Positions 1 to 42,643 of a DNA stretch of 64,000 nt are shown piece after piece (position 1 is the stretch's first letter; every line of letters begins with the position of its first letter). The stretch comes from an uncultured Bacteroidales bacterium (GTDB taxonomy: Bacteria; Bacteroidota; Bacteroidia; Bacteroidales; F082), in contig CAJOEZ010000009.1 of assembly GCA_905233685.1 (NCBI GenBank), positions 186,001 through 250,000 on the forward strand, given 5' to 3'. The position numbers and the translations under genes were made by a program. A model generated the notes under the pieces. That model saw only the letters and a program-made list of their open reading frames with translations. It searched no databases and was not told the DNA's origin.

Positions 1-908
1 TGAGAGAACTGCCCGTCGAAAGCTTCTTTGAGGAGACCGATCCGCAAGTGGAAAAGAAAATCTTCGCCGAACTGCTGAAGACCTACAAGAACGCCTTCAA
101 AGGTGAAGAACTGCCTGAAATCTACTCGATTATCGACAAGAAATTCAAAGGTGACATTGATGCTTTTGCTGACGATGTCTACACCAACTCCATCTTCGCC
201 ACTCCCGAGAGCATCAAGACTTTCTTGGCCAAGCCCAACCCGAAGAAAATCGGCAAGGACTACGCCTACCTCATGAGCAGCTCGATGATGGAAGTCATCA
301 TGAGCCACATGATGGACTACCGTCAGGCCATGCAAGCCGTGAGCGAGAACGACCATGTCTTCGTGAAAGGTCTGCGCGAGTATTATGCTGCCACTCAGCC
401 CGAGAAGAGCCTCTATCCCGACGCCAACTCGACGATGCGCATGACCTACGGCTCCGTCCAAGACTACATGCCTGCCGATGCCGTGCATTACGACTACGTT
501 TGCACTGCCAACGGTATCCTTGAGAAGTACGTTCCCGGCGACTACGAGTTTGACGCTCCCAAGCGCCTCATTGACCTCATCGAGAAGAAGGACTTCGGCG
601 TGTATGCCGACGACAACGGCGAACTCATCGTGTGCTTCCTGTCGACCAACGACATCACCGGCGGCAACTCCGGCAGCCCGATCATGAACGGCAAGGGCGA
701 ACTCATCGGCCTCGCCTTCGACGGCAACTGGGAAGCCATGAGCGGCGACGTGAACTTTGAGCCCAAACTCCAGCGCACCATCAACGTGGACGTGCGCTAT
801 GTGCTCTTCATCATCGACAAGTACGCTGGCGCCACCAACTTGATCAACGAACTCGACATCCGCAAAAGCGAGCCCAAACCGCTGCGCGTGGAAGAAGAGA
901 AAATCTAA
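1..908 (+). CDS. S46 family dipeptidyl-peptidase (DPP7/DPP11-like), C-terminal part
   Basis: The reading frame is open from base 3, so the gene begins upstream and only about 300 C-terminal residues are visible. The segment TGGNSGSPIMNGKGELIG carries the nucleophilic serine of S46 serine exopeptidases. These periplasmic or surface enzymes release dipeptides from oligopeptides in asaccharolytic and gut Bacteroidales. The residue 18 positions after the serine is Gly (in FDGNW). DPP11 enzymes, which prefer Asp/Glu, have Arg there as I recall, so this copy looks DPP7-like with hydrophobic P1 preference; that specificity is an inference. The catalytic His and Asp lie outside the window. A strong hairpin terminator follows the stop. 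Confidence 0.9.
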   Translation, partial: RELPVESFFEETDPQVEKKIFAELLKTYKNAFKGEELPEIYSIIDKKFKGDIDAFADDVYTNSIFATPESIKTFLAKPNPKKIGKDYAYLMSSSMMEVIMSHMMDYRQAMQAVSENDHVFVKGLREYYAATQPEKSLYPDANSTMRMTYGSVQDYMPADAVHYDYVCTANGILEKYVPGDYEFDAPKRLIDLIEKKDFGVYADDNGELIVCFLSTNDITGGNSGSPIMNGKGELIGLAFDGNWEAMSGDVNFEPKLQRTINVDVRYVLFIIDKYAGATNLINELDIRKSEPKPLRVEEEKI

Positions 909-35522: not shown

Positions 35523-35910
35523 TTATCCGATTACGATTAAAGTATCACCTTGGAGCACATTGTCGCCCTGGCGGCAGTTGATGGCGGTGATGGTACCGTC
35601 AGCCTCGGCCAGCAGGTTGTTTTCCATCTTCATGGCTTCGTACATGAGCAGCGGTTCCGGGAAGCGGAGCGGCCATCTTGTAGCCTGCGCCACCGGCGGC
35701 GGCAGGTTTCGGAGCGGCACTCTGGGTCGGAGCGCTTGCGGCGGGCTTGGCAGCCGGACGGGCCACGGGAGCCACCACAGGAGCGGCTTGCTCTTCCATT
35801 TCCACTTGATATTCGGTGCCATTCACATTGACGGTGGCGATGTTGCCCTCAATGTTCTGGACTTCTACTTCGTATGGTTTCCCACTAATGGTGAATTTGA
35901 ATTTTTTCAT
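35523..35910 (-). pseudogene. mmdC: Biotin carrier subunit (mmdC-like), internal deletion and frameshift
   Basis: From the ATG at 35910 the frame encodes MKKFKFTISGKPYEVEVQ, an Ala/Pro-rich linker, then GYKMAAPLPGT and goes out of register. The next frame resumes with PLLMYEAMKMENNLLAEADG, including the biotinylated Lys of the AMKM motif, and ends correctly at 35523. Related carriers have about 17-18 residues (of the VKVGDTVKKGQ kind) between PLPG and the strand leading to EAMKM. Here a single nucleotide remains, so about 50 bp are missing near 35650. Both the biotinyl fold and the frame are broken. Flanking subunits look intact. It could be a real pseudogene or an assembly or sequencing error. 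Confidence 0.75.
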
Positions 35911-39340: not shown

Positions 39341-42300
39341 TTATTTGTGAACTTTCCGGATAAACTCCTCCACCTCAGGCACACCGCCTTGGTAGACCAA
39401 GTAGCCGTTGTAAGGCTCTCTCGGGGTGATTTCGCTATTCACAGGAGTGAGCATGATGTTCTTCACCTCTTCCCTATCATGCGTCTGACCCAAGGCCCAG
39501 CCCAACTTGATGTAGGCAGTCTCAGCAAGCATGTTCTGTGCAGGGATAATGCCGCGATCCATAAGGTCACGGCCGGTGTCATAAACAAACATGTGGGCAT
39601 AACCCCAAATGGTCTGCACGGTCATGTATTGATGCACACCCTTGTCGGTGGCGCGCTGGATGGCGTCGAACATGCCACGGTTGACGTGACCTAGTCCAGT
39701 GCCGTCCCAAACAATGCCCTTGTAGCCGTTATCCACCAGTGCGTCAAGTACATCGGGCTTCATGCCAGGATAGTAGTACAGGATGGCCACTCTGTCGTCG
39801 AAGGTCGGAATAATTTTCACGTCGCGGTCAGCGCGGCGGTGGTTATAGACTTCCTTAATCGGCACCACACCACGCTTGCGGTCCACAGTGGCCACGGGCG
39901 TATCGCCGATGGTGCGGAAGGTGGAACGGTATGAGGAGTGCATCTTACGCACACGTGTGCCACGGTGCAGGAAGCCGTACTCGTCGGAGGTGGGACCAAA
40001 CATGCAAACCATCACTTCGGCCACGTCACCGTGACCAGCAGCGGTCATGGCGTGCATGAGGTTCAAGGCGGCATCCGAGGAAGGACGGTCGGAAGAACGC
40101 TGCGAACCGACCAAGACAATCGGCACAGGCAGGTTCTGGCACATGAAGGTCAGGGCGGCGGCGGTGTGGGCCAAGGTGTCAGTACCGTGGCCAATCACGA
40201 TGCCGTCGATGCCGTTCTGAATCTCCTCGCCAATCTTCTTGGCCAAGGCGATGTATTCCTTGGGCGACATGTTCTCGGAGAACACGGCGAACACCTTTTC
40301 GGTGTCTAAGTTGCAGATGTCGGCCAATTCCGGCACGGCACCATACAACTCACCCGGCGAGAAAGCGGGAATCACGGCACCCGTGCGGTAGTCCAGACGC
40401 GAGGCGATGGTGCCACCCGTGCCGAGCAACTTCACATGCGGAAGCCCCTCTGTATAAGGGAATTCCTTCTCTGGGATGTGGTAGTTGGCTTTCTTGTAGT
40501 CGGTCTCCACCATGCCCGTGATGGTACTGATATCGACGCCAATGTTGTAGCCCGTGTTCACCTTCATGACGATATGCTGGTCGTCCTGGAAGGCGGCGCG
40601 AGGCAGAATCGTGCCTTTGAACAGGCCGCCCGTGGTCTGGCACTCGGCCTGACTCCACACGCGGCAGTTGTATTTCTTGAGCACCTCAAGCGAGGCACCC
40701 CAATATCCTTGGAAAAAATCTTTCATTTCGATGTTGCCCGTCGCTTCCCGCATCTGGCCCATGATCCAGTTCATGCGGTCGAGGTCGGTGCAGGACTTCT
40801 TCTTCGGCGCGAAGCCGGCGCAGAGGTTGTCGAGTTTGGTCAAAAGGTCGTCTTTCGCGAAACGCTTGAAACCAATCTTCTCCAACACTTGCTCCATCGG
40901 CAGCGAAGCGTCTTCGACCAAAGCGGGAGCCATGTTCCAAGCCAAGCGGCTGTCTAGGCCTTGCTCCTTCAGGAAGGCGAACAGATTATATAAGGTGTTG
41001 TCGTTGAACTTCGAAGCGGGGTTCTTGCCCAATAAATGCTTCAGCCTCATGCCGACAAAGCGACCGAGCGTGCGACCGTCCACGCCAAGTTTCTCGACGG
41101 TTTCGGCCATGATGGGGAACCAGTTCTTCGCGAAGATGTAGCGGAAGCAGTCCTCCGGCACGTTCCACTCCTTTAATGTATAATAACGGTCGATGATTTC
41201 GGTGGGCAGTTCGGCGCGCAAAGCCTTGATGAAGGCGGGGTCAAGCGGGATGGGAGCCGAGTCGGTGTCGGGATACATACGGTCGGCACCAGGCAACACG
41301 CGCTCGAAGATGGTGATGCCGTTGCAGACGGCTTTACGGGTCTCCTTCGGCACGCCGTCGAAGGCCATGAGACAACGCTCTTCGATGGTCTCGATAGCGG
41401 TGGGCATGTCGTTTTGCGGCCCCCAAACGAGGATGAGGGCATCTTCGTCGGTGGCGTGGATGCGCTTGGCCAATTTGTGCCATTGCGAATGGCTCAAAAC
41501 GGATTCCAGCATCTCGTCGTGGAGCATGTTGGGACGCTCAAGGCAGGCAATGACCTTCAGGCGGTCGGCGATTTCGTCGGCGAACATCTTGCCGGGTTGG
41601 GTGAAGTGAGAGAGTACGCCACGGAACTTGGGCAACTTGACGAGTTTCATCGCGCCGCCTTTGGCCTTGTTGTCAAGGATGGGCAGATAGTCGGTCGGGA
41701 ACGACACGTCGGCCACTTCCACTTTCCAGCCTTCCTTGCCAACCTCGCGGTTGAGGCGCTCTTGCAGTTGCACCAACGACCACTGGCGGAAGCACTCATT
41801 ATGAGAGAGTTCGGGGATCCACTTGGCATGTTGCACACCCTTCAACTCGATACGAGTGCCACCCGTGCAACTCACGTTCACATCCTGGCGGCCTGCACCC
41901 ATGCCTATGCGGACAAGACCCGTGGAGCGACCGAGGAAACGGATGTATTCGCAGGTCTCGCGAAGTTCGTCGGGGTTCTTGCAGTCGGGATAGGTGACGG
42001 TCTCAATCAACGGCACGCCGAGGCGGTCGGTCTGATAGATGCGGCGGTGGCCGATGTCGCTGATTTCGCGGCAGGCATCCTCCTCGATGCTCAACTGAAT
42101 CAGGCGGATGTCCTTTTTCGGCAGTTTCAGCAGGCCTTCCACGCCCACGATAGCGGTGCGCTGGAAGCCCGTCGGGATGGAGCCGTCAAGGTATTGCTTG
42201 CGGGTGATATGCACCTCGCCCACGATGTTCAGGTTGGAACGCAGGGCGATGATGATGGCGTTGTGCAAGGCCTCGCGGTTGATGGGGAACGGCGGGGTGT

Positions 42301-42643
42301 CGTCGATGTCGTAGGTGCAGGCGGTGCCGTTCTTGATGCGATAGACGATTTCCTTCTTCGTCTTGAACTCCATCAAGGCCGTGCCGTCATATTCGCCTAA
42401 TTCCGAAAGGGTGGGGCGCATGTGGCGGATGAGTTCGGCATCGTAGTCGTCAAACTTGTTGAATTGTCCGGCGGGACAGTGGCAAAACAGTTTTTCTTTC
42501 GTCTTGATCTGTTGGTGCACTTCCAGTCCCGACATGAAGCCTATGCGGTCATAGTCTTCTTGTGTGGCTTTCTTGCGCTCGACGTAGCCGGCTTGTTGCT
42601 TGGTCAGCTCGTAGTTGGCGCGTGGGTCGAAGTTGGTGCTCAT
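39341..42643 (-). CDS. gatE-gatD: Fused archaeal-type Glu-tRNA(Gln) amidotransferase, GatE followed by GatD
   Basis: 1,100 residues in one intact frame. Residues about 1-640 match GatE: GFMSGLEVHQQIKTKEKLFC, LSIEEDACREI, DRLGVPLIETV (about 205), GAGRQDVNVSCTGGTRIELK, an inserted AspRS-like GAD region (about 290-420) and a YqeY-like tail. Residues about 645-1100 match GatD: the N-terminal domain (GTILPRAAFQDDQHIVMKVN), then an asparaginase-type domain with LGTGGTIASRLDYRTG (about 738), HGTDTL (about 815), GSQRSSDRPSSDAAL and RKMHSSYRSTFR, which supply the Thr, Thr-Asp and Lys of the catalytic set. GatDE releases ammonia from Gln or Asn and amidates Glu-tRNA(Gln). It is normally two separate archaeal proteins, while bacteria use GatCAB or GlnRS. 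Confidence 0.88.
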   Translation of the reverse strand: MSTNFDPRANYELTKQQAGYVERKKATQEDYDRIGFMSGLEVHQQIKTKEKLFCHCPAGQFNKFDDYDAELIRHMRPTLSELGEYDGTALMEFKTKKEIVYRIKNGTACTYDIDDTPPFPINREALHNAIIIALRSNLNIVGEVHITRKQYLDGSIPTGFQRTAIVGVEGLLKLPKKDIRLIQLSIEEDACREISDIGHRRIYQTDRLGVPLIETVTYPDCKNPDELRETCEYIRFLGRSTGLVRIGMGAGRQDVNVSCTGGTRIELKGVQHAKWIPELSHNECFRQWSLVQLQERLNREVGKEGWKVEVADVSFPTDYLPILDNKAKGGAMKLVKLPKFRGVLSHFTQPGKMFADEIADRLKVIACLERPNMLHDEMLESVLSHSQWHKLAKRIHATDEDALILVWGPQNDMPTAIETIEERCLMAFDGVPKETRKAVCNGITIFERVLPGADRMYPDTDSAPIPLDPAFIKALRAELPTEIIDRYYTLKEWNVPEDCFRYIFAKNWFPIMAETVEKLGVDGRTLGRFVGMRLKHLLGKNPASKFNDNTLYNLFAFLKEQGLDSRLAWNMAPALVEDASLPMEQVLEKIGFKRFAKDDLLTKLDNLCAGFAPKKKSCTDLDRMNWIMGQMREATGNIEMKDFFQGYWGASLEVLKKYNCRVWSQAECQTTGGLFKGTILPRAAFQDDQHIVMKVNTGYNIGVDISTITGMVETDYKKANYHIPEKEFPYTEGLPHVKLLGTGGTIASRLDYRTGAVIPAFSPGELYGAVPELADICNLDTEKVFAVFSENMSPKEYIALAKKIGEEIQNGIDGIVIGHGTDTLAHTAAALTFMCQNLPVPIVLVGSQRSSDRPSSDAALNLMHAMTAAGHGDVAEVMVCMFGPTSDEYGFLHRGTRVRKMHSSYRSTFRTIGDTPVATVDRKRGVVPIKEVYNHRRADRDVKIIPTFDDRVAILYYYPGMKPDVLDALVDNGYKGIVWDGTGLGHVNRGMFDAIQRATDKGVHQYMTVQTIWGYAHMFVYDTGRDLMDRGIIPAQNMLAETAYIKLGWALGQTHDREEVKNIMLTPVNSEITPREPYNGYLVYQGGVPEVEEFIRKVHK

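Follow-up and report, generated by a model that had tools for sequence, protein, structure and literature searches.

An archaeal-type GatE–GatD pair in bacterial genomes, read as one frame in a single Bacteroidales assembly

We analysed a 64,000-nucleotide stretch of DNA (hereafter the window) from an uncultured Bacteroidales bacterium (GenBank assembly GCA_905233685.1, contig CAJOEZ010000009.1, positions 186,001 to 250,000), in which a single minus-strand frame joins homologues of GatE and GatD (E and D for short), the subunits of the archaeal Glu-tRNA(Gln) amidotransferase. Comparison with relatives established that a bacterial GatE–GatD pair is real, widespread and present in several phyla. 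The account that we favour, by a modest measure, is that the window holds an ordinary bacterial gatE–gatD pair whose frames would be joined because the DNA spanning the stop of E and the start of D is missing from the assembly, and that the pair would have a spare or repair role beside glutaminyl-tRNA synthetase (GlnRS) and asparaginyl-tRNA synthetase (AsnRS).

GatE and GatD in one frame

The frame runs from an ATG start over 1,100 amino acids with no internal stops, GatE preceding GatD (Table 1). It exceeded the cut-off of the NCBIfam model gatE_arch (TIGR00134; 374.6 bits over residues 30–600, cut-off 319.55) and fell below that of a second GatE model, NF003107 (428.8 versus 456 bits). Both GatD models were exceeded, gatD_arch (TIGR02153) with 494.7 bits over residues 675–1076 (cut-off 324) and NF003217 with 490 bits (cut-off 310). 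Pfam matches comprised GatB_N, GatD_N and both asparaginase domains, together with a GAD domain under its cut-off. The nearest solved structures were the archaeal GatD and GatE chains of 1zq1 and 2d6f, which we take to be the enzymes of P. abyssi and M. thermautotrophicus, respectively.

Aligning 30 bacterial rows with these two archaeal enzymes, and allowing one gap, we found 85 invariant positions in GatE and 100 in GatD. Among them are the blocks GLExHxQ, EED, DRLG and RxDxN in GatE and TGGT, HGTD and RKMH in GatD, present in all 32 rows and presumably catalytic. The original prediction had described GatE and GatD in one 1,100-residue frame, in that order and with their blocks intact, and this was confirmed by the profile scores, the invariant blocks and the unbroken frame. 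Its second claim, an archaeal-type GatDE in a Bacteroidota genome, is likewise what the profile matches and the archaeal best solved relatives indicate for the gene pair. The joined frame is real in the sequence as given; its existence in the cell does not follow.

The join between the two frames

Relatives were drawn from a collection with one genome per species (84,980 species), so that the window species is represented by one genome. The scan yielded at least 583 confirmed relatives among at least 585 pattern matches, and the best 80 loci were kept and compared. In all 80, the E frame is closed by its own stop; for three of them (L048, L051 and L055; L and G numbers are our handles for loci and genomes), the stretch compared contains no D. 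Within a sample of 60 genomes of the genus, 34 carry a near-full E, the window's included, and E again closes at its own stop in 30 of the 30 others whose DNA was read (33 others carry it); tabulated E frames of 650–664 amino acids are given for G015, G020 and G048, from the table only. Four genomes with large open-frame values (G047, G018, G041 and G023) were considered as fusions and rejected, E closing at its own stop in each; we read the large values as the span of two matches.

Searching 99 genus genomes with the junction pattern, with two mismatches allowed, returned two: the window's own and a chance match in G093, rejected as a common junction because it sits in an unrelated frame that we take to be ketoacyl synthase-like. 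None of the other 98 genomes has the fused junction. The fusion is not a lineage trait, and the closed E frames in the 80 loci and 30 genus genomes argue against the meaningful fusion that had been proposed.

In near relatives with adjacent genes, E ends in ...GNIEMKELANNIK, followed by a stop, about a dozen bases and a D that starts MAEDFFQGYWG. The window reads ...GNIEMK-DFFQGYWG and is 41 bp shorter at this point than its nearest relatives with adjacent genes. In those relatives, the absent 41 bp hold the stop codon of E and the start codon of D; the join removes just the last 7 residues of E and three residues from the start of D, and a 4-base microhomology, AAGA, lies at both breakpoints.

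Judged by a simple start rule, the distance from the E stop to the D start is −35 to 129 bp in 82 loci with closed frames, with one exception at 1,581 bp. Additional to these are genus loci with a distant D: in 8 of the 30 genus genomes read, D lies 1.5 to 11 kb downstream of E and is not adjacent (L122–L129, in G047, G018, G002, G003, G057, G013, G054 and G023). The gene between E and D at L045 resembles a secreted protein. We found no conserved operon partner among the 80 loci, where the two widest clusters of neighbours other than E and D span 15 loci each and have 3 and 0 members outside the near relatives of the window.

The join is more likely to be an assembly error than a real strain-specific fusion. 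The GlnRS of the same genome lacks 14 residues (42 bp) that are present in seven of seven fetched genus genomes (L081, G000:C26), which we read as the same kind of assembly fault. Such a loss from the only GlnRS found is hard to credit in a living cell without a gatB over its cut-off. Elsewhere in the window, a gene that we name from its sequence as the biotin-carrier subunit of a decarboxylase operon lacks 50 bp that the stretches of ten relatives have, the operon otherwise looking normal; its truncation is probably an assembly fault. A gene at the window's left edge (G000:C9:184776-186908) is interrupted by two gaps, of 46 and 35 bp, in a comparison with one relative, G002, in which it encodes 737 amino acids and is presumably secreted-protease-like. 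Identity to G002 drops from 98.6% to 88% at the first of these gaps, as in a chimeric join. Counting gaps where the other genome is coding, across about 0.5 Mb of the window genome and 1.1 Mb of five relatives, we found 5 distinct coding-DNA gaps of 28–80 bp in 66,757 aligned bp here versus 4 in 348,857 bp of the relatives (p 0.008).

Several observations weigh against an assembly error. When the two gaps that gave rise to the test are set aside, the counts become 3 versus 4 (p 0.087), and two of the three remaining gaps rest on the single relative G002. Split frames are not commoner here, with 1 in 81 open reading frame (ORF) matches versus 0/164, 3/121, 3/101, 2/42 and 0/61, a comparison restricted to ORFs of at least 150 amino acids and thus leaving the short biotin-carrier gene uncounted. 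The ORF coverage of the assembly is normal, and the AAGA microhomology and the kept frame fit a real deletion too.

The two sides of the join also differ in their nearest relatives. For the final 120 bp of E the best match is L055, where the contig stops shortly after E, and the next best are L045 and L085, with non-adjacent E and D; for the initial 200 bp of D it is relatives with adjacent E and D. Such a mismatch could come from a wrong join, but recombination would explain it too; as a consequence, the true E–D spacing in the window strain may differ from 41 bp. Set against the window, two other assemblies of the genus also have short gaps (29 bp in D, L052/L090; 30 bp in E, L100/L125), which are not rare in these assemblies.

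Alternatively, a recent strain-specific deletion at the microhomology may have joined gatE and gatD into a working 1,100-residue enzyme with a fixed 1:1 stoichiometry, a possibility that we regard as doubtful. It would account for the unbroken 1,100-codon frame, the small loss at the join and the repeated AAGA, and it is in keeping with the normal ORF coverage, the lack of excess split frames and the strong purifying selection on both halves (ratios of non-synonymous to synonymous substitution rates against seven relatives of 0.045–0.121 for E and 0.017–0.031 for D). A precedent for fusion by loss of a stop codon, that of gatC and gatA, is reported for M. smegmatis mistranslation mutants (PMC7541841). 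Such a deletion would nevertheless have to stand beside four other coding gaps of 35–50 bp in the same genome, three of frame-shifting length and one in the sole GlnRS found, and the AlphaFold2 model of the joined protein is too poor to judge its geometry (predicted template modelling score 0.52; predicted local distance difference test (pLDDT) below 50 for residues 633–641). As a caution, when one assembly shows two genes in a single frame, the join can hinge on the absence of a few dozen bases.

Table 1. Features of the joined frame and of a neighbouring gene, in window positions
Feature	Positions	Strand	Basis
GatE half, residues 1–643	40715..42643	−	Pfam, NCBIfam, structure matches, alignment
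GatE domains (approximate limits): catalytic ~30–300; GAD-like insert ~301–415; cradle end 416–480; helical and tail 481–643			
GatD half, residues 644–1100 and stop: GatD_N, asparaginase N and C domains	39341..40714	−	
Junction at ~40719; 41 further bases in relatives with adjacent genes	40700..40735	−	Comparison with relatives' loci
Presumed biotin-carrier subunit gene in the adjoining decarboxylase operon, cut short by a 50-bp gap at ~35653	35599..35910	−	Comparison with relatives

Cellular setting and the GatE tail

The original prediction had implied that this organism makes Gln-tRNA(Gln) indirectly and had pointed to GlnRS, GatCAB and the glutamyl-tRNA synthetase (GluRS) as the enzymes to check. 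The genome encodes a GlnRS over its cut-off, short of the 14 residues missing in the assembly, as well as AsnRS; of GatCAB, a search for gatB found none over its cut-off. Its GluRS keeps the Arg aligned with T. thermophilus Arg358, a single residue that we take to mark a discriminating enzyme. These results speak against indirect synthesis, and the organism need not make Gln-tRNA in that way, although the case would weaken if the 14-residue loss from GlnRS were real.

The same setting recurs across carriers of the pair. GlnRS is over its cut-off in 52 of the 60 sampled genus genomes, in 30 of the 34 with a near-full E, and in 28 of the 34 other-lineage carriers that were taken from the 80 loci. 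Four of the six other-lineage carriers without it have a gatB over its cut-off and two have neither; one of these two, which may be incomplete, was missed entirely by the GlnRS model, a model that elsewhere also catches GluRS. In a sample of 148 genomes from the phylum, all at least 90% complete except the window's own, GatE exceeded its cut-off in 12, including the window's genome and with 7 from one family. GlnRS accompanies GatE in all 12, compared with 68 of the 148 overall (hypergeometric p 5e-5, relatedness ignored), and gatB shows no association (10/12 versus 121/148). AsnRS was found in 51 and a Gln-synt_C match in 49 of 54 genomes, three of which are genus members without a near-full E. 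We therefore found no support for the pair as an Asn-tRNA enzyme or as a source of glutamine in cells without glutamine synthetase; with GlnRS, AsnRS and Gln-synt_C mostly present, the pair seems not to be needed for Gln-tRNA, Asn-tRNA or glutamine as such.

At L213 (G146:C45), a GlnRS gene directly adjoins gatD and is convergent with it. Clostridium sp. CF012 (L066), whose record is not labelled as a metagenome-assembled genome, has a pair of the group described below as B, together with GlnRS and no gatB over its cut-off.

The carboxy-terminal tail of GatE divides the bacterial sequences. In trees of 37 bacterial and two archaeal rows, the E sequences form a group B of 26 rows with support of 100/100 (Bacteroidales, Clostridium CF012, the window and others); the remaining 11 rows, group A, are held together only at 83/48 and comprise unnamed phylum relatives and records named Chloroherpeton, Krumholzibacteria and Aegiribacteria. 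Between the groups, catalytic domains are 64% identical and tails 14%. Group B tails are also 14% identical to archaeal tails, and identity is 31% within the group A tails and 21% between them and the archaeal ones. The Pfam model GatB_Yqey matched the A tail of L211 (E 2.7e-5, under the cut-off) and another weakly (0.06), but neither the window protein, nor any of three group B tails, nor the window's genome gave a match. On these identities, the tRNA-binding tail of GatE is remodelled in sequence in the window's branch.

We used AlphaFold2 to model a group B tail (L062; pLDDT 95.5). The best match in a PDB search was GatB (9a6e_A, an integrative model; probability 1.00, TM score 0.53, E 0.025), followed by crystal structures of GatB, YqeY, 2d6f and human GlnRS, all weakly matched. 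In the predicted structure, the group B tail seems to have kept a GatB-like fold with a changed sequence.

From the conserved blocks and established knowledge of GatDE, we infer the following chemistry. The E–D complex would use ATP to phosphorylate the carboxylate on the side chain of a misacylated aminoacyl-tRNA, of which Glu-tRNA(Gln) is the likeliest, and the activated carboxylate would be amidated with ammonia that GatD frees from Gln or Asn. Our guess is that it serves as a spare or repair amidotransferase route and not as the main source of Gln-tRNA. Some observations count against this assignment. GlnRS is also present in all 13 genus genomes without E (at least 90% complete, at most 5% contaminated), so that the pair is dispensable; a discriminating GluRS would supply little Glu-tRNA(Gln); and the PDB search gave no match to the L062 tail model at E 0.001 or better. 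Yet both E and D are kept under purifying selection in genomes that already have GlnRS and AsnRS.

A spare or repair route for Glu-tRNA(Gln) would be the simplest reading, a changed tRNA in group B the bolder one. According to the latter, which we consider unlikely, the tail would have lost its selectivity for tRNA(Gln), and the enzyme would act on a different aminoacyl-tRNA, perhaps to an end outside translation. The 14% identity of the group B tail to archaeal and group A tails, set against 64% for the catalytic domain, points in this direction, as do the GatB_Yqey match to the group A tail of L211 and to none of three group B tails, and the GlnRS, AsnRS and glutamine synthetase of most carriers. 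PMC4810234 describes the tail as helping GatDE and GatCAB to discriminate between tRNA(Gln) and tRNA(Glu), with selectivity at the tail and the tRNA elbow. However, the predicted fold is still GatB-like, so the same tRNA may be read; fast evolution of the tail alone shows no new substrate; and group A tails have diverged as well.

Several bacterial phyla thus have GatDE beside GlnRS and AsnRS, some also beside GatB. We put forward tentatively, as somewhat short of an even prospect, that these are bacteria with both direct and indirect routes to Gln-tRNA(Gln), or that the Bacteroidales-type enzyme has moved to another aminoacyl-tRNA. Either, if true, would contradict the view of GatDE as confined to archaea and tied to the absence of GlnRS. 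Should the bacterial pair act on Glu-tRNA(Gln), why cells keep both routes becomes testable; should it not act on that substrate, the remodelled tail may be an instance from nature of an amidotransferase that has switched tRNA.

Spread, origin and known systems

Outside the window, the records among the best 80 loci are named Bacteroidales, Bacteroidetes, Saprospiraceae, Ignavibacteriales, Chlorobiota, Chloroherpeton, Neomarinimicrobiota, Krumholzibacteria, Aegiribacteria and Clostridium sp. CF012. Two of the 12 GatE-positive phylum genomes consist of a single contig (G256 and G264), and E and D are neighbours in both. The window D is 62.6–79.4% identical to ten bacterial rows versus 44.1–44.7% to the archaeal chains, and E 44–60% versus 32%, the archaeal side being two sequences per gene cut to their aligned parts, one of them from Methanothermobacter. 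The archaeal rows lie behind a 100/100 branch in both the E and D trees; two such rows cannot place the root, and the tree program warns of long branches. These comparisons suggest that the pair forms a bacterial branch of this archaeal-type amidotransferase, distinct from the two archaeal enzymes used for comparison.

It is highly improbable that the pair came recently from an archaeon or lies on a contig of archaeal contamination. PMC9499178 and PMC8007984 describe the family as archaeal only, but 33 of the 59 other genus genomes sampled have a near-full E, GatE occurs in 11 phylum genomes in addition to that of the window (two of the 11 being single-contig), and the bacterial rows fall on one side of the 100/100 branch in both trees, with two archaeal rows for comparison. 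We rejected contamination, as single-contig genomes carry the pair, and also a gut methanogen as donor in a recent event, for which the identities to the two archaeal chains, neither of them a gut-methanogen sequence, gave no support; of the two origins offered by the original prediction, an overlooked bacterial lineage is the better.

Judged by title-level listings, none of the papers listed in our searches of the open-licence PubMed Central literature describes bacterial GatDE, which is no proof of absence; as the proteins exceed the cut-offs of NCBIfam models, database records may already bear the names GatE and GatD. The M. smegmatis gatC–gatA fusion resembles the window in that loss of a stop codon joins neighbouring amidotransferase subunits; it differs as a laboratory GatCAB mutant, caused by an insertion and with a mistranslation phenotype.

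With bacterial GatCAB, the window protein has in common the GatB/GatE catalytic domain, and the modelled group B tail resembles that of GatB. It differs in scoring 99.3 bits against the gatB model, below the cut-off of 314.8, and in its partner, an asparaginase-type GatD; the partner subunit in GatCAB is an amidase.

Archaeal GatDE is the closest known system, both subunits aligning over most of their length with the shared invariant columns. The differences are the identities to the window of 32% (E) and 44–45% (D), the remodelled E tail of the window's branch, the single frame found in the window only, and the coexistence of the bacterial genes with GlnRS and AsnRS. The absence of GlnRS is given as a feature of archaeal GatDE hosts in PMC9499178, and it is a feature of those hosts rather than of the GatDE family. 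In archaea GatDE substitutes for GlnRS, whereas in bacteria it accompanies GlnRS and AsnRS.

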